Positions 9,943-32,620 of a stretch of 33,246 nt of DNA are shown here, one piece after another (positions within the stretch are counted from its first letter, which is position 1; every line of letters starts with the position of its first letter). The notes under the pieces were generated by a model, which was not told the origin of the DNA, ran no database searches, and saw only the letters and a list, made by a program, of their open reading frames with translations. Both the position numbers and the translations under genes were made by a program. This DNA is from a virus. Location: positions 1-33,246 of IMG/VR virus record IMGVR_UViG_3300032308_002870, one strand, 5' to 3'.

Positions 9943-9977
9943 GTACAACACGTACCCCTTAACAATTGGAGGATCCT

Positions 9978-10880
9978 ATGGCCCGACGTTCAAACGCCGC
10001 AGTCGCTATTCAAACGGCTGTTGTGCGAGATATCCAGGACGCGCCCGAACTCAATCCGCGCTTGCAATCGGTCGTTCAGGAAATCGATCAGCTGGTCACC
10101 AGCGTGCAAGAGGCCAGCCTGACGGCCTACTGGGAAATCGGCAAGCACATGCACGATGTGGACGAGAATCCCGACGAGTATCTGACCGACGCACAGAAGG
10201 CCGCTCACGTGACGCCGTCGTCGCTTTTGGTGGCTGCGTTTGCCGCGGTTTACTCGGCGGAACAGCTGCGCAGCGCCGAGGCGTTTTACGATAAGTACCC
10301 TTCGGCGCGGCAGCTTCAGCGGCTTCTGGACATGCGCTGCCCGGACCGGCCGCGGTGGCGAATGACCATGTCGCACGTGCAGCTTTTGACCCAGGTCGCC
10401 GATGACGAAAAGCGTGCGGCGCTGGAGGAGAAGTGCGCCGAGGAGGCGATCCCGGCCAAGACGCTCGCCAACGAGCTGCAGGAAATCCGCGGCAAGAAGC
10501 CCGGCGGCGGCCGTAAGCACCAGGCCCCGAAGGGTCTGAAGAACCAGGTCTACGACATGCTGCAGAACCTGCGAAAGTTCAACGGCCGGTCCGAAGCGCT
10601 GTGGCTCGGCGAGGACAACGTCTTCGACGCGCTGATGAATTCGTCACCCACGAAGCGCGACGGCGTCGTGATGGATTATTTCCGTGACGTTGTCGAGCAG
10701 CTGACAAAGCTCTCGGACGTCTGCGGCGATCTCATTTCTATGGCGAATAACGTCATGGAGTCGCTCGAAAGAGACGACACGGAAGAAGAACAGGAGGAAG
10801 ACGACAGCACGGCGGCTGACGCGCGACGGGCCGCGGCCGCTGCTGCAGCGGCGCGGCGTAAGAGCAACATCACCCGCTGA
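9978..10880 (+). CDS. Helical protein with YhcG/DUF1016-like features
   Basis: A 300-residue, mostly helical protein. ATG 9978 is preceded by GGAGG 5 bases upstream and is preferred over TTG 9966. YWEIGKHM at about residue 51 and SHVQLLTQVADDEKRAALEEK near 138 resemble the conserved helices of DUF1016 (YhcG N-terminal DNA-binding domain), which typically reads YWEIG and W-S-H-Y-x-x-L-L-x-V. The nuclease domain of YhcG is absent. The tail is strongly acidic (DDTEEEQEEDD) and then Ala/Arg-rich. A DNA-binding regulator or accessory protein is a reasonable guess; a ParB-like fold is an alternative. Confidence 0.78.
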   Translation: MARRSNAAVAIQTAVVRDIQDAPELNPRLQSVVQEIDQLVTSVQEASLTAYWEIGKHMHDVDENPDEYLTDAQKAAHVTPSSLLVAAFAAVYSAEQLRSAEAFYDKYPSARQLQRLLDMRCPDRPRWRMTMSHVQLLTQVADDEKRAALEEKCAEEAIPAKTLANELQEIRGKKPGGGRKHQAPKGLKNQVYDMLQNLRKFNGRSEALWLGEDNVFDALMNSSPTKRDGVVMDYFRDVVEQLTKLSDVCGDLISMANNVMESLERDDTEEEQEEDDSTAADARRAAAAAAAARRKSNITR

Positions 10881-11468: not shown

Positions 11469-12203
11469 ATGGCGTGCGCGGCCCGACCCGATCTTACGGT
11501 GTGTGTTCTCTTTTACGGAGAGGACGACGTCGCTTTGCCGCTGGCGCAGCGCGTGCTTAACGCGCCGATGCGGCAGCTGGCGACGCACAACGTGGAGTTT
11601 CGGTTTGGTTTCAACGCCGTCGGCGAGAAGACCAGGGCGTACGTGCGCGAGGCCGCGGAGACCGATTTTCACAGACACCTGTGGATCGAACCCGAAGGCA
11701 ACATTTTCAAGTACCCAATCATGCGGCGAATGCTGCACGCGCAGCCGTTAAACGCGCCTCTCACGATGTGGTTCGACGACGACTCTTGTCTCGCTCCGGA
11801 CTGCAACGTGGACGCGTGGCTGCCAAGGGTCACGAATTTGCTCGGCACGTACGCCATGGTCGGATCGCTTTACAGGCAGCGGCTTGTAGGCGGTCAGGCG
11901 CATTGGATTCGTAGTCAGTGGTGGTACGCCGGAAAGAACGTCCCGAACTACGTCAAGTTTTGCACGGGCGGTTGGTGGACGATTCGCTCGGAGATCCTGC
12001 TGCGCTACGACTGGCCGACGCCAGAACTTCAACATCGCGGTGGTGACGTGATGCTCGGCGCGCTATGCGACCAACAAAACTTGCCTATCGCGCATTTTCG
12101 CGACTCCGTTTGGATCAACGCCAATGCCGCAGGAATCGAAAGCAAAGCTCCTCGACGGGGCCACAACGAGCGTCCGATTGGCTTCTCCTTCAAACCGTCC
12201 TGA
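11469..12203 (+). CDS. GT-A type glycosyltransferase (family 2-like)
   Basis: A 244-residue sugar transferase. The N-terminus (LTVCVLFYGEDD) is a typical nucleotide-sugar-binding start; a metal-binding DxD is present as WFDDDS with D103-D105. Further on, GGWWTIRSEIL, WPTPEL and RGGDVMLGALC resemble the acceptor region of family 2-like enzymes, where the model inspects gate and catalytic Asp. The substrate is unknown: modified DNA bases, virion proteins or host surface sugars are all possible. The last 80 bases overlap a small Cys-rich ORF in another frame. Confidence 0.8.
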   Translation: MACAARPDLTVCVLFYGEDDVALPLAQRVLNAPMRQLATHNVEFRFGFNAVGEKTRAYVREAAETDFHRHLWIEPEGNIFKYPIMRRMLHAQPLNAPLTMWFDDDSCLAPDCNVDAWLPRVTNLLGTYAMVGSLYRQRLVGGQAHWIRSQWWYAGKNVPNYVKFCTGGWWTIRSEILLRYDWPTPELQHRGGDVMLGALCDQQNLPIAHFRDSVWINANAAGIESKAPRRGHNERPIGFSFKPS

Positions 12204-13945: not shown

Positions 13946-14626
13946 ATGGGCCGAATCCATTACTGCACGGCGGTCTACAACCGGTGGGACACGTTTGCTG
14001 TCCTGTTGGAAAGCTTTCTGCGCCTCAACGCGCAGTCCGGCAACGCAGCCGACCGGCTCCAGGTTTACGACTGGGACGGCGGCGGATTAGATATCTATCC
14101 CGCCGCTCCTGACAACGTCCGTTTTCATGCGGGCCATGAACGGGGCCACATCAACCGGGCGCACGCCCGCAACCAGGCGATGCAGCTTGCGCAGCCCTTC
14201 AACGACGACCTGGTGTTTTTTCTGGACTGTGATATGGTGCTTCCGCTGGATTTCTCAGACCGCGTGCGGACACATGTTAAGACGGGCCAGGCTTACTTCC
14301 CCATCTGCTACTCGCTCTACGAGGGCGCGCCGATGGCGGTCACCACAAACGGGCCGCCCTACCGCCGTCCGGCGAGCTCCACGGCCAATGGCTGGTGGCG
14401 CGAGAGCGGCCGCGGCAACTGCGGTTTTGTTGCCGAGGACTTTTTCGAACTGGGCGGCTGGAACGGGGAGCGCTGGGGAACTCGTTACGGCCGCGAAGAC
14501 GACGATGTTTATTGGCGCGCGGTTCAAACGATGCAAGTCGTTCGGGAACGCGTGCCGGGCTTTTTTCATCAGTGGCACCCGAAGCCACGAGAAGCCCAAA
14601 ACCCCTCCACCAAGAGGAACCCATGA
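13946..14626 (+). CDS. GT-A glycosyltransferase (galactosyl/GalNAc-transferase C-terminal type)
   Basis: A 226-residue glycosyltransferase. The metal-binding DxD is FFLDCDMVLP (D94, D96). The second signature, RGNCGFVAEDFFELGGWN followed by GREDDDVYW at 182-190, matches the GGxxxDxFxxWGxEDDDL motif of the Glyco_transf_7C domain found in GalNAc and galactosyl transferases, where the EDDD acts near the catalytic base. FHQWHP at 208-212 is another typical ligand motif. It overlaps the next gene by 4 bases. A GATATCTAT motif lies at 14090. The substrate is unknown. Confidence 0.85.
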   Translation: MGRIHYCTAVYNRWDTFAVLLESFLRLNAQSGNAADRLQVYDWDGGGLDIYPAAPDNVRFHAGHERGHINRAHARNQAMQLAQPFNDDLVFFLDCDMVLPLDFSDRVRTHVKTGQAYFPICYSLYEGAPMAVTTNGPPYRRPASSTANGWWRESGRGNCGFVAEDFFELGGWNGERWGTRYGREDDDVYWRAVQTMQVVRERVPGFFHQWHPKPREAQNPSTKRNP

Positions 14627-20050: not shown

Positions 20051-21997
20051 GTGATCACTCCCTCTGGCTCGGCCGGATTCGGCAATCTTGGTCGCGGCGC
20101 GCTTGCCGACGAGCGCTTTCCGGACCCGTTCTGCGATGTCGCCAGCCTGTCGATGCCCGAGAGCATCCAGGTCGCGTTACGGTGGTGCGAGTACATCATG
20201 AACGCCAACGGTGTCTACCGTCAGGCGATCGACCGGGTGATCTCGTACTTCATCACCGATGTTGAAGTAAGCGACCTCGGCGAAAACACGATCGGCCGGG
20301 AAGAGAAGGAAAAGTACCGGGTTTTCCTCGAGGAGACGCTGGGCGTCAAAACGGTCCTCAAGGCCGTGGCGATGGACATGCTCACCTACGGAAATAGCTT
20401 CACCAGTTTGCTTGTCCCGTTTCGCCGATATCTTTCCTGCAAGAAGTGCGGTTTCGAGGCGCCGCTCAAGAAGGTTCACGGCTCCTCGGCTTTTAACTTC
20501 AAGTGGGAAGAGTTCGACTTTCACGCCACCTGCCCGAACTGCAAGTACTCCGGCAAGTTCAACCACATCGACCGACGCGGCGGCAACGACGACCCAATAA
20601 AGGTCAAGCGTTGGAGCCCCCACGAAATCGACATTCTCTGGGACCCGTATAGCGAAGAGTGCACGTACATCTGGAAGATCCCGGAAGACTATCGCAACCT
20701 GATTCGGGCTGGAAATCTTCACCACCTAGAGCACGCCAGCTGGGAAGTGATTCAGGCGATTAAAGACGGCAAGAACCTGATGTTCGACAAGGACGTCGTG
20801 TTCCACCTCCACGAATACGCGCTGTCCGGTATGCGTAATCGCGGTTGGGGCATTTCACGGATTCTTGTGAATTTCCGGCAAGCCTGGTATTACCAAATTC
20901 TCCAGCGTTACAACGAGGCGATTGCCCTGGACTACGTGGTGCCGTTCCGCGTGATCACGCCTGCGCCCCGCGGCGGCGACCCGACCTCCGGCGACCCGGT
21001 CCACACGATCAACCTTTCGAGCTTCGCCTCGCGTGTCCAGGCAATGCTCCGCGCCCGACGCGTCGATCCGGCCCGCTGGAACGTGCTCCCGTTTCCGGTC
21101 GAGTACCAGGCCCTGGGCGGCGACGCCAGTCAGCTCGCGCCCAAGGATCTCATCCAGCAGGCGATGGATACGCTCATGCAGTGCATCGGTATGCCTGTTG
21201 AGCTCATGAACGGCTCGCTGAGCTTTCAGGCAGCCCCGGCGGCGCTGCGGCTGTTCGAAGCCAATTGGAGCCACCTGCCGCACAACTTGAACGTCTTTTT
21301 GCGCAACCTGAGCCAAACTCTTTCTCGCGTCATGTCGTGGGAGCCGGTCTCTATCAAGCTCCAGCGGGTCACGCACGCCGACGACCTCAACCGGCAGATG
21401 GCCAAGCTCCAGCTCATGCAGGGTCAGATGGTCTCCAAGACCACGGGCCTCAAGAGCGTTGGCCTGGACTACGAGGAAGAGATCAAGCAGCAGCTCGAGG
21501 AAGAGCGGATCTACGCCGAAGCGCAGGCCCGTATGCAGAAGGAGATGGAGCAGGCCCAGAGCATGCAAGACCTCGCCGTGCAGGCAGAGATGATGCAGGG
21601 CGCGGGCAACCCTGGCGCGAGCGCGACTGGCATGCCACCCGGCGCCGACCCAGCTGCGGCCGGTGCGCCTCCTGGCGCCGCGCCTGGAATGGCGCCCGGT
21701 GCCGCGCCCGGTATGGGCGGCAGCCCAGTCGACCAGTTCATGATGCAGCGGCAGAACAGCCCCAACGTGCCGCGCAGCCCCGAAGACATGCAGTCTCAGG
21801 CGCAGCTTCTTGCTCAGCAAATTCTCTCCCTACCGGAAGCTCAGAAGGACTCGGAGCTCATCAAGCTCAAGCGATCCGACCCGACAACGCACGCGCTGGT
21901 GTCGAGCATCATCGACGATATTCGCCAGCAGGCGAAAACCCAGGGCGGCGCCATGATGATGGCGCAGCAGTTTGGGCAGGGTCAACCTCCTGGGTAA
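20051..21997 (+). CDS. Portal protein with an inserted zinc ribbon
   Basis: This 648-residue protein probably forms the dodecameric portal ring at the capsid vertex. Supporting features are the helical N-terminus (SIQVALRWCEYIMNANGVYRQ region), the wing/clip-type central part (IVNFRQAWYYQILQRYNEAIA region), GMPVELMNGSLSFQAAPAALR and a helical C-terminus rich in Gln and Met. Two CxxC pairs at C130/C133 and C161/C164 form a zinc-ribbon-like insertion in the N-terminal third, which most portals lack. Residues about 517-560 are a Gly/Ala/Pro/Met repeat tract. GTG 20051 follows a weak AAGGACGAGG site. A GATATCTTT motif lies at 20427. Confidence 0.82.
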   Translation: MITPSGSAGFGNLGRGALADERFPDPFCDVASLSMPESIQVALRWCEYIMNANGVYRQAIDRVISYFITDVEVSDLGENTIGREEKEKYRVFLEETLGVKTVLKAVAMDMLTYGNSFTSLLVPFRRYLSCKKCGFEAPLKKVHGSSAFNFKWEEFDFHATCPNCKYSGKFNHIDRRGGNDDPIKVKRWSPHEIDILWDPYSEECTYIWKIPEDYRNLIRAGNLHHLEHASWEVIQAIKDGKNLMFDKDVVFHLHEYALSGMRNRGWGISRILVNFRQAWYYQILQRYNEAIALDYVVPFRVITPAPRGGDPTSGDPVHTINLSSFASRVQAMLRARRVDPARWNVLPFPVEYQALGGDASQLAPKDLIQQAMDTLMQCIGMPVELMNGSLSFQAAPAALRLFEANWSHLPHNLNVFLRNLSQTLSRVMSWEPVSIKLQRVTHADDLNRQMAKLQLMQGQMVSKTTGLKSVGLDYEEEIKQQLEEERIYAEAQARMQKEMEQAQSMQDLAVQAEMMQGAGNPGASATGMPPGADPAAAGAPPGAAPGMAPGAAPGMGGSPVDQFMMQRQNSPNVPRSPEDMQSQAQLLAQQILSLPEAQKDSELIKLKRSDPTTHALVSSIIDDIRQQAKTQGGAMMMAQQFGQGQPPG

Positions 21998-22003
21998 TCC
22001 ATA

Positions 22004-23044
22004 ATGTGTGTTGGGATTTACACCCATTACGCACACTGCGACCAGGCCTACTTCGCAGTGCGCCTGGTTGCCCTTCTGCGCGCGTTGGGCGCGCCATTTG
22101 ATATCTATTCGGACAATTCTCCGGGGAAGCTCAAGCTCCCGTATGACCGCTCGGTAAAACACCGCAGCGTCGTCAAATACACCGATTGGGTCAGACGGCG
22201 TTCCGTAGTCGTGTGGACGCACGTGCCGCGGGTCGAGCAGCTGGATTACGCAAACCGGCGCGGCATCAAAACGATCGTCGTGCCGATGTGGCAGGAATTT
22301 TTACCGCCCTACAAAAAAGCGCTGAAACGCGCGGACCGCGTGATTGCGTTGTCCAGCGAGTGCCGGGACTTGTTTGTGGACGTGTTCAAGCTGAATCGTG
22401 TTTCGCTGATTCCGTTTGACACCGGCTTGCCGATTACTCGCAAAAACAAGCCAGGGGATCCGCGCCGTTTGCAGCTCTTTTTGCCCTGGTTTGACCGCAA
22501 CGCGCGCTGCTCTTCAGGCCACTTTCTGGGCATGCTTGGGTACATCATGGAACGGATGGAAGAGCCGCACTTAACCGTGGCGGTCAATTCCAGCCGGTTT
22601 GGCCCTCCCGCGGCCAAGTTCTTTCAACAGCTCGGCGCGCGAACTGGCGGCCGCGTTACGCTGGTGCGAAACGTGTCGCTGGTAAAACGTTTCAGCTTGT
22701 ACACCAACGCCGATCTAACGATTTGGCCCGCCGAGTGCGACAACTACGGGCTGTGCGGCCTAACGAGCCTGGCGGCAGGTACGCCCTTGCTGAGCTTTGC
22801 GGTCGCGCCCCAGACCGATTTTCTGCACCAGGACATCAATGCGGCTCTAGTCAAAACCAGGGTCGATTACGATGATAATGGCGTTCCGCATGCCGTGCCG
22901 AACTACGAAAAGTTTGCGGCGGCCTTGCAGGAGCTGATTGCCGAGCCGCGGCATATTGCCCAAATGCAAAAGAAAGTGTCGTACAACCTGCCTTCGCGAA
23001 AGGAATCGTTTGAAGGCGGCTGGAAACAACTCTTAGATCTTTAA
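22004..23044 (+). CDS. GT-B glycosyltransferase (family 4/1-like)
   Basis: A 346-residue sugar transferase. The C-terminal half has the nucleotide-sugar site as WPAECDNYGLCGLTSLAAGTPL (from W241), comparable to PSxxEPFGLxxLEAMAxGxPV. E244 matches the first Glu, whereas the second Glu of the E-x7-E pair is replaced by small residues. The N-terminus (GIYTHYAHCDQAYFAVRLV) contains the usual Rossmann strand and loop. It starts 6 bases after the portal stop. A TTTGATATCTAT motif lies at 22097-22108. The substrate is unknown. Confidence 0.8.
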   Translation: MCVGIYTHYAHCDQAYFAVRLVALLRALGAPFDIYSDNSPGKLKLPYDRSVKHRSVVKYTDWVRRRSVVVWTHVPRVEQLDYANRRGIKTIVVPMWQEFLPPYKKALKRADRVIALSSECRDLFVDVFKLNRVSLIPFDTGLPITRKNKPGDPRRLQLFLPWFDRNARCSSGHFLGMLGYIMERMEEPHLTVAVNSSRFGPPAAKFFQQLGARTGGRVTLVRNVSLVKRFSLYTNADLTIWPAECDNYGLCGLTSLAAGTPLLSFAVAPQTDFLHQDINAALVKTRVDYDDNGVPHAVPNYEKFAAALQELIAEPRHIAQMQKKVSYNLPSRKESFEGGWKQLLDL

Positions 23045-27250: not shown

Positions 27251-28399
27251 ATGCCTAAGCCAACGCTGCATCTAATTGGTCTTTTTCACACAATTCATAA
27301 TCTCGAGTTTTCGCATTGCGCGTTCACCGGAAAAGCGCTGCGTTTTGCGAAAATGGTGCAGCCGTATGGTTACAACGTTGTTGAGTACGCCAACGAAGGC
27401 AGTCAAAGTCTTGCTTCAGAAAAAGTAGTAATGTTAACCAGCCAGGAATATGAAGATCTTCTTGGCAGCAAGATGCGCTCAGCCGCGTTTCACGGCGACG
27501 TCGCGCAGATTCAAAGCCCGTGGCACACGCGATTTGAAGAAAAACTAATTCCAGCATTGCGTGAACGGCTTAAGCCGCGCGACATTATTTGTCATCCATT
27601 TGGTCACGCGCACGAACGCGTCGTCCGCGATTTCCCGACACATGTTCATTTAGAAACAGGTATTGGGTACGGCACGTTGCTTCAAGGCGCCCTTAAAATC
27701 TTTGAAAGTTACGCGTGGATGCACTGGCATCAAGGAAAAGAAAAACGAAACGGCATAAACTACGAGTGGGTCATTCCGAATTATTTTGAAATCGACGACT
27801 GGGAACCAAACTATGAGCCCGGCAAGTACATCGCGTTTTTTGGGCGCATTGGTGTTTCTAAGGGGATGAACACGGTGCTGGAAATCGCTAAGCGTGTAAA
27901 TATGCCCGTAAAGGTTGCGGGTCAGGGCGACATTTCTCCATGGAAGCACCCCAATATTGAGCACGTCGGCGCGTTGAAGGGAAAAGAACGAAGTGATTTT
28001 CTTCGCAACGCTTACTGCCAGCTTATGCCTACAGAGTTTGTAGAGCCTTTTGGTGGTTCCGGCGTCGAGGGCTTGCTTTGTGGTACGCCGCTGATTGCGC
28101 GCGATTTTGGCGCATTCACCGAGACAGTTCAGCCTGGTTTCAACGGTTACCGCTGTCATGTGCTCAAACAGTGGCTCGGCGCTATTCAAGCCGCGGGCAA
28201 ACTAGATCGCCGAAAAATCGCCGCCGCTGCTAGAGCACGGTATAGCCTGCAGCAATGCGGCGCCGAGTACGACGTTGTCTTTCGTCAAATCGATGAGCTG
28301 CATGAAGAAGGTTGGTACACCCTGCCTAAACCCGCGCCTGCTGCGGCGCCTCCGCCAGCCTTTTCTGCGCCTATGGGCCCGCACTCTGTCGTAGGCTAG
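27251..28399 (+). CDS. GT-B glycosyltransferase (family 4/1)
   Basis: A 382-residue glycosyltransferase with a complete group 1 signature: FFGRIGVSKGMNTVLE around residue 195, HVGALKGKERSDFLRNA, then E265 and E273 in VEPFGGSGVEGLLCGTPL, followed by PGFNGYRC. The E-x7-E pair is intact, so it is likely active. The substrate is unknown. By eye GC in the first part is about 50%, clearly below the surrounding genes, and AAA, GAA and ATT codons are frequent, which suggests recent acquisition. The C-terminal 30 residues are a Pro/Ala-rich tail absent from the core fold. Confidence 0.88.
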   Translation: MPKPTLHLIGLFHTIHNLEFSHCAFTGKALRFAKMVQPYGYNVVEYANEGSQSLASEKVVMLTSQEYEDLLGSKMRSAAFHGDVAQIQSPWHTRFEEKLIPALRERLKPRDIICHPFGHAHERVVRDFPTHVHLETGIGYGTLLQGALKIFESYAWMHWHQGKEKRNGINYEWVIPNYFEIDDWEPNYEPGKYIAFFGRIGVSKGMNTVLEIAKRVNMPVKVAGQGDISPWKHPNIEHVGALKGKERSDFLRNAYCQLMPTEFVEPFGGSGVEGLLCGTPLIARDFGAFTETVQPGFNGYRCHVLKQWLGAIQAAGKLDRRKIAAAARARYSLQQCGAEYDVVFRQIDELHEEGWYTLPKPAPAAAPPPAFSAPMGPHSVVG

Positions 28400-31668: not shown

Positions 31669-31741
31669 GGCCCCATCGTCTAGAGGTTTAGGACATCGCC
31701 CTTTCACGGCGGTAACCGGGGTTCGAATCCCCGTGGGGTCA
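31669..31741 (+). tRNA. tRNA-Glu (anticodon TTC)
   Basis: The acceptor stem GGCCCCA (31669-31675) pairs with TGGGGTC (31734-31740), including one G-T pair at position 2; A31741 is the discriminator. TC at positions 8-9, the D-arm start GTCTAGAGG, the anticodon arm CGCC-CTTTCAC-GGCG with TTC at 31703-31705, and the T-arm CGGGG-TTCGAAT-CCCCG are all in place. The CCA end is not encoded. It resembles E. coli tRNA-Glu closely over the arms. It reads GAA/GAG codons; Glu codons are common in this genome. Confidence 0.95.
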
Positions 31742-31744
31742 ATC

Positions 31745-32085
31745 GGGGGCGTAACGGTATCGATCGGATGAAGACGCCCGTGTTTGCGTGTCGTGGTTGG
31801 TCGGCAGGCCACGTTAAAAGCCGCCCATGCCTTAACCGGCACTTCGGTTCTCTCCCTCGCGGCTTGACCGCGAGCAGACTGCGACTGCCTGCAGGAGGCG
31901 GTCAAAAGTCTGTCGCTAATTTCTGCTGCTGCTGTGAGCGATCGGTAAACAGCAAAAGATTACGATCACCAGCAAACGCGCGTTTGTCGTTGGAAACGCG
32001 TTTGCTTATCAAACAACGAACACACACGTAGACGACACGGGTAGAGAAGCATCACGACACAGGGGTTCGACTCCCCTCGCCTCCA
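31745..32085 (+). ncRNA. ssrA: tmRNA (transfer-messenger RNA)
   Basis: A one-piece tmRNA of about 341 bases. The 5' GGGGGCG (31745-31751) pairs with CGCCTCC (32078-32084), A32085 being the discriminator; the third pair is G-T, matching the alanine identity element. The T-arm is AGGGG-TTCGACT-CCCCT (32061-32077). CGTGG (about 31791-31795) with CCACG (31809-31813) forms the upstream pseudoknot stem. CTCGCGG/CCGCGAG (31856-31862 with 31868-31874) forms the stop-codon hairpin, with the tag stop in its loop. Further downstream CAAACGCG/CGCGTTTG and TCGTTG/CAACGA look like a pseudoknot. No CCA is encoded. It lies 3 bases after tRNA-Glu. Confidence 0.93.
31820..31867 (+). other. tmRNA tag reading frame, ending LAA
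   Basis: Reading from GCC 31820 gives A-A-H-A-L-T-G-T-S-V-L-S-L-A-A and TGA at 31865-31867. The C-terminal LAA matches the degradation signal of bacterial tags that direct products to ClpXP-type proteases. The exact resume codon (GCC 31820 or GCC 31823) is inferred from the preceding GTTAAAA. The stop lies in the loop of the perfect 7-base-pair hairpin typical of helix 5. Confidence 0.8.
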
Positions 32086-32089
32086 CTTG

Positions 32090-32138
32090 CCAAGGCCCGC
32101 CCGCGAAACGTATCGCAGGCGGGCCTTGGTGTTCTTGT
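32090..32138 (+). terminator. Strong intrinsic terminator after the tmRNA
   Basis: CCAAGGCCCGCC (32090-32101) pairs perfectly over 12 bases with GGCGGGCCTTGG (32118-32129); TGTTCTTGT follows. It begins 5 bases after the tmRNA end and separates it from the next gene (ATG 32162). Confidence 0.75.
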
Positions 32139-32161: not shown

Positions 32162-32620
32162 ATGGCGTTCTGGCTCGACAAGCTCGGTCATTTGATCTTT
32201 GGTTCGGTGAAAACGCCGGGCGACGTTGACATCGAGCGCGCGGATTACAACGCGCTTTTCGACTTCGCGCCTGAGCATCGGCACGTGGCCCTGCCGATTC
32301 TCCGGAAGATGCCGGAGTACGACGAGGCCGCCGACGCGCACACCATGGCGGTGGTCGAGGAGGTCTCGGCGAGCGACGAGGCCGACAAGGCCCGCGCGGC
32401 GTACGAGGCCTTCAAAGTGGCGCACGCCGCCGCCGCGCAGATCGACCCCAACGCGCCCGAGGCGCCGAAGGTCGAGCTCGACGCCGCAAAGCATCTCGCC
32501 GTCGAGGCCGAGGCCAAGTACAAGGCGGCCTCCGAGGCGCAGGTGGCGGCGCGGGCTCGGCTCGATGAGCTGAAGGCGATCGTGGAGCAGATGCCGCCCC
32601 GGCGTTTCGCGGCGGTTTGA
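32162..32620 (+). CDS. Unknown helical protein with coiled coil, 152 residues
   Basis: ATG 32162 follows AAAGGAG. Residues 1-35 have a hydrophobic stretch with Trp and Phe; residues about 65-140 are a long Ala/Glu/Lys helix (AAKHLAVEAEAKYKAASEAQ) likely forming a coiled coil, as in tail or head-associated proteins. No domain recognised. First gene after the RNA-locus terminator, so it probably opens a new transcription unit. Confidence 0.72.
   Translation: MAFWLDKLGHLIFGSVKTPGDVDIERADYNALFDFAPEHRHVALPILRKMPEYDEAADAHTMAVVEEVSASDEADKARAAYEAFKVAHAAAAQIDPNAPEAPKVELDAAKHLAVEAEAKYKAASEAQVAARARLDELKAIVEQMPPRRFAAV

Follow-up and report, generated by a model that had tools for sequence, protein, structure and literature searches.

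The tRNA-Glu and tmRNA genes of the window

The window, that is, the whole stretch of DNA that was analysed (33,246 nucleotides, an entire IMG/VR contig), carries on its plus strand a gene for tRNA-Glu with the anticodon TTC (UUC) at positions 31669-31741, which was called by ARAGORN and scored 59.7 bits with the Rfam model RF00005. It is followed, after three bases (31742-31744), by a one-piece, ssrA-like tmRNA gene of 341 nt on the same strand (31745-32085). The Rfam covariance model RF00023 matched positions 31745-32088 over its full length (model positions 1-374) with 111.1 bits and an E value of 7.9e-43, the gathering score being 47 bits, and single-strand folding gave a z of -3.8 for the tmRNA. 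The mature 3' end should lie at the discriminator A32085, and the next bases are CTT, so that CCA is not encoded. An earlier note, made from the letters of the sequence, had described a tRNA-Glu and a complete tmRNA three bases apart and without an encoded CCA, and had named the covariance-model score as a check; coordinates, spacing, 3' end and score all agree with that description, and the presence of a complete tmRNA beside the tRNA-Glu is confirmed.

ARAGORN, which does call most tmRNAs of the relatives described below, reported the tRNA-Glu(TTC) as the sole gene of the window; its call is a program heuristic and not a defining property of tmRNA. For the tmRNAs of two relatives (G004 and G007, loci L287 and L283) the program gave out-of-frame tags (ADYVSSW...), the proper frame being GAFAPALAA. 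With the window gene missed and some tags read out of frame, surveys of phage tmRNAs that rely on ARAGORN will be incomplete.

The 5' strand of the acceptor stem, GGGGGCG (31745-31751), pairs with CGCCTCC (32078-32084) at seven of seven positions, the third pair being G-T (G3:U70), and the T-arm AGGGG-TTCGACT-CCCCT (32061-32077), placed with Rfam, is paired at five of five. An alanine acceptor with G3:U70, a TTC-type T-arm and no anticodon arm are features by which a tmRNA is recognized. Pseudoknot PK1 (31792-31825) consists of CGTGG/CCACG (31792-31796/31809-31813) and GTCGGC/GCCGCC (31800-31805/31820-31825); it covaries among related tmRNAs, and its second stem has one U.C mismatch in the window copy. 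According to the helix listing, the PK2 region (31874-31926) contains GCAGACT/AGTCTGT (31874-31880/31907-31913) and GACTGCCT/AGGCGGTC (31883-31890/31896-31903), the PK3 region (31930-31967) contains TGCTGT/ACAGCA (31930-31935/31949-31954), and PK4 (31971-32019) is formed by AGCAAACGCG/CGCGTTTGCT (31971-31980/31997-32006) and TCGTTG/CAACGA (31987-31992/32014-32019). The second stems of PK2, in which the loop pairs with TTCTGC just downstream, and of PK3, in which the loop GATCG pairs with a downstream CGATC, were read by eye only. All four pseudoknots typical of a tmRNA were thus located.

The tag frame (31838-31867) reads GGC ACT TCG GTT CTC TCC CTC GCG GCT TGA and encodes GTSVLSLAA followed by a stop. 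It is preceded by TTAACC, in which the A at -4 from the resume codon GGC is equivalent to A86 of E. coli tmRNA, a residue needed for function and frame (PMC2481249). Hairpin P5, with a 7-bp stem (CTCGCGG-CTTGA-CCGCGAG, 31856-31874), holds the stop codon in its loop. An internal tag frame with a hydrophobic end, a stop codon within a hairpin and an A86 equivalent upstream are again what is expected of a tmRNA. The acceptor and T-arm pairing, the pseudoknot-like pairs and the frame ending in LAA within a stop-codon hairpin had all been pointed out in the earlier note, and each of them stands.

Downstream of the tmRNA, a very stable hairpin at 32089-32130 on the plus strand (-36.2 kcal/mol, z -6.3) is a probable terminator. 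The suggestion that the two genes have their own terminator holds as far as this hairpin goes, but the T-run after it is poor (TGTTCTTG) and the hairpin is absent from the listing of the intrinsic-terminator scan. A sigma-70 promoter scan found no promoter, though the phages of this family encode RNA polymerase genes. Just beyond, on the same strand, lies a conserved gene of no assigned function (32162-32620) that is 71-73% identical in relatives where it adjoins a tmRNA. A search with this gene yielded two loci, both with an adjoining tmRNA (tags GAPLALAA and GASAPALAA), and no match in named phages.

Phage context and conservation among relatives

Judged by its genes, the window is part of the genome of a large phage. 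Thirty-eight of the 42 ORFs tested are colinear with a viral contig of 203,910 bases (G002), at 35-94% amino-acid identity, and the tmRNA of this contig is found at the same place, with the same neighbour genes. G002 encodes a virion structural protein (L248:2426-4135) and an RNA polymerase beta-type protein (L316:7104-11471). The latter, 1456 aa long, shares about 32% identity with its counterpart in Salmonella phage Arash; phages of this family may possess a multisubunit RNA polymerase of their own. A window protein of 648 aa (20051-21997) is similar to the portal protein of phage Arash (25.8%) and also to proteins from Vibrio phages D69, D148, and D181, and PHROG matches include phage DNA polymerase, UvsX-like, and RuvC-like proteins. 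Portal homology, colinearity with G002 and the RNA polymerase genes together point to a large tailed phage that has genes for RNA polymerase, in agreement with the proposal that the tmRNA is phage-encoded. A search of five family records for a tyrosine integrase found none. Glycosyltransferase-looking proteins are spread along the window (11469-12203, 13946-14626, 22004-23044, and 27251-28399), and the protein at 9966-10880 has a DUF1016 N-terminal domain (Pfam E 1.2e-10).

A search with the portal protein yielded 29 viral loci. All contigs from this search that are longer than 100 kb (G002, G004, G026, and G029) contain a tmRNA above the cut-off, as do two shorter ones; its absence from other short fragments says little, given their length. 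In the tmRNA-bearing records the gene lies downstream of the portal gene on the same strand, that is, at a place in the phage genome that is conserved among relatives. In eight records (G004, G005, G006, G007, G009, G017, G019, and G026) the tmRNA is preceded on its own strand, at a distance of about 75 to 510 bases, by a tRNA-Glu(TTC) gene, which was not seen near the tmRNA of three others (G002, G003, and G029); the whole 204 kb of G002 contains only four tRNAs besides the tmRNA. The retention of the tmRNA, while other RNA genes of the family come and go, argues that trans-translation matters to the phage. Near the G026 tmRNA, a DUF3800-VIII RNA match stands at the threshold (L291:2081-2155, 40.5 versus 40.2 bits).

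Ten family tmRNAs were aligned, and 23 pairs from the acceptor, PK1 and T-arm were tested, P2 being excluded because MAFFT misaligns the window there. In this alignment 97.4% of the cells were paired, with two-sided changes at 9 pairs, a level of pairing that was reached by none of 500 shuffles, and sliding the partners cut pairing to 40-52%. The alanine identity pair G3:U70 is invariant (G-U in 10/10). Loss of pairing in close relatives, which would have counted against a tmRNA, was therefore not what we saw: pairing is retained, with compensatory changes.

The tags of the relatives from the portal search are GAFAPALAA, GAYAPALAA, GASAPALAA, GTFNSAPALAA, and GAPLALAA, and the LAA end is common to all family members. 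This is apparently a new, undescribed phage lineage that keeps a tmRNA, often with tRNA-Glu(UUC) upstream, and its tags, which have only the C-terminal LAA in common with host tags, are likewise new.

A second large viral group shares the PK1 motif and has tags of the pattern GxxQLALAA, such as GETQLALAA (L048, L143, and L149 are among its members); in those with a tRNA gene a short way upstream, this is most often tRNA-Ile(TAT). In this wider group, GGC and Q are invariant over 20 distinct tag sequences, and the L-A-L-A-A codons show 6 synonymous variants against 1 non-synonymous, counted as codon types and not as events. These variants support the view that the tag is translated and that its end is under selection.

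Relation to planctomycete ssrA and to known phage tmRNAs

The PK1 pattern was found in 82 viral contigs and in 49 contigs of GTDB genomes, 46 of the latter named as Planctomycetota, which makes planctomycetes the probable hosts of the family. No portal homologue was found in 392 planctomycete genomes, so that it is the tmRNA alone that points to the host. A planctomycete-type tmRNA of this kind can serve as a host lead for large phages without a close cultured relative. The neighbouring tRNA-Glu was also considered as a host marker and was not informative, its best match being 92% in planctomycetes and 93% in a record labelled Acinetobacter phage. Two assemblies labelled Verrucomicrobia and Latescibacterota (L236 and L237) have tmRNAs with the PK1 motif, the resume codon GGC and the tag GDEPMLLAA; these are either true bacterial genes or phage contigs in bins.

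Fifteen bacterial genomes with the PK1 motif each have one tmRNA above the cut-off. Planctomycete ssrA and the window gene have in common the one-piece form with a full-length RF00023 match, G3:U70, four pseudoknots, the stop-codon hairpin, the PK1 motif and the lack of an encoded CCA, which is usual in host and phage genes of the PK1-motif set. They differ in that the host genes have the resume codon GCC and mostly the tag AEAQFSLAA, whereas the phage-borne gene has GGC and GTSVLSLAA. The idea of a phage-specific tag is thus upheld against the planctomycete tags found, with the LAA end kept. In a phylogenetic tree, the viral tmRNAs did not form one clade apart from those of the hosts; the G002 tmRNA grouped with planctomycete genes (99/97 support), and the window tmRNA was on a long branch of unsure placement. 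An ancestor of the family probably acquired the tmRNA long ago from a planctomycete host, as far as the sequences tell, and perhaps such acquisition occurred more than once or was followed by later exchange.

The nearest named relatives are Salmonella phage Arash and Vibrio phages D69, D148, and D181 (portal 26-27%, RNA polymerase beta about 32%). Unlike the window family, Arash, D69, and D181 have no tmRNA above the cut-off, which is in line with a gain in the lineage of the window phage. Phage tmRNAs as a kind are already well documented: complete ssrA genes, as in the window, are present in mycobacteriophages (Bxz1, Catera, Wildcat, and others), Bacillus phage G, and methylophage Melnitz (PMC4131195, PMC9004378), and one survey found tmRNA in 2.3% of phage genomes (PMC9004378). 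The Melnitz tmRNA is two-piece and riboswitch-linked, in contrast to the one-piece gene described here. Huge phages, which are large and uncultivated, carry translation genes that include tmRNA and SmpB (Al-Shayeb et al. 2020, PMC7162821), whereas no SmpB was found in 16 viral records, some of them fragments. A DNA-level search of 50,697 phage records with three related tmRNAs returned only tRNA-Glu or scraps of the T-arm and 3' end. In the literature searched, whose coverage of journals is incomplete, no paper described a tmRNA from a planctomycete phage.

Proposed ribosome rescue and alternative readings

We consider the gene, with a probability of about 0.85, to be a true one-piece tmRNA that belongs to a large and probably virulent phage, was probably derived from planctomycetes, is retained by related phages of about 200 kb, and works in ribosome rescue. 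Points that speak against this reading are the U.C mismatch in PK1 of the window copy, the missing ARAGORN call, the unsure tree placement of the window tmRNA, the negative portal search in planctomycete genomes and the negative promoter scan. The complete set of tmRNA parts, conserved at the same genomic place, is seen in the sequence itself, and it is from these parts that we infer rescue and tagging, as the earlier note had also suggested for a phage copy acting on stalled ribosomes and incomplete proteins. Host alanyl-tRNA synthetase (AlaRS) would charge the phage tmRNA through G3:U70, and host SmpB would deliver the RNA, during infection, to ribosomes that have stalled because a message is truncated or a tRNA is lacking; with no SmpB gene seen in the 16 viral records, both factors presumably come from the host. 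Translation would resume at GGC and add A-GTSVLSLAA, the alanine coming from the charged RNA. The LAA end would then route the tagged product to host ClpXP, which reads the LAA end of ssrA tags. The phage would gain in that ribosomes are freed and incomplete proteins cleared when messages are cut or tRNAs lost, and with a tmRNA and a tRNA-Glu of its own it could supply translation without relying on the host once host RNA decays or tRNAs are cleaved.

It has been proposed that phage tRNAs offset the cleavage of host tRNAs (PMC10264068), and we conjecture such a role for the tRNA-Glu beside the tmRNA. In a more far-reaching and rather doubtful version, this planctomycete phage lineage of about 200 kb would depend on the tRNA-Glu and tmRNA as a cassette for rescue and for counter-defence when the host cleaves tRNAs and RNA decays, and the tag would be tuned to avoid recognition by host adaptors. 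If that were true, the needs of the phage rather than those of the host would set which products are destroyed.

The N-terminal half of the tag is unlike host tags, and tmRNA is strongly inhibited by a molecule that consists of the tRNA-like domain and little else (PMC4131195). The phage RNA might accordingly be a decoy or inhibitor that occupies host SmpB or stalled ribosomes, or that adds a badly read tag, and so blunts trans-translation. Such an RNA would not need the retained tag frame, stop hairpin, A86 equivalent and full set of pseudoknots, and the LAA end is under selection at the amino-acid level in the wider viral group; we regard this alternative as unlikely. Somewhat less likely still is a functionless passenger copy of host ssrA, left by imprecise excision or kept as an attachment site, as might be thought from the role of tmRNA genes as classic integration sites and from the well-supported grouping (99/97) of the G002 gene with planctomycete ssrA. 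A passenger of this kind fits poorly with the lack of a tyrosine integrase in the five family records, with a complete gene in mid-genome whose place is conserved in distant relatives, with the compensatory changes and the purifying selection on intact relatives, and with a tag unlike those of hosts. That the contig is a fragment of a bacterial chromosome with its own ssrA, as the same PK1 motif in bacterial genomes might suggest, is hardly credible: it is colinear with a viral contig of 204 kb that bears genes for a virion protein and a phage-type RNA polymerase, its portal is homologous to those of Arash and the Vibrio phages and absent from the 392 planctomycete genomes, and it has PHROG matches to phage DNA polymerase, UvsX-like and RuvC-like proteins.

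The natural tag variants of these phages could be used to find out what host proteases and adaptors require. Separately, a reduced viral tmRNA of only about 236 nt was observed at L129:4173-4411 (also in L167 and L185; Rfam 95.1 bits), in which the PK2-PK4 region is largely missing and the acceptor, PK1 and a tag, AKPQFAMAA, are retained.
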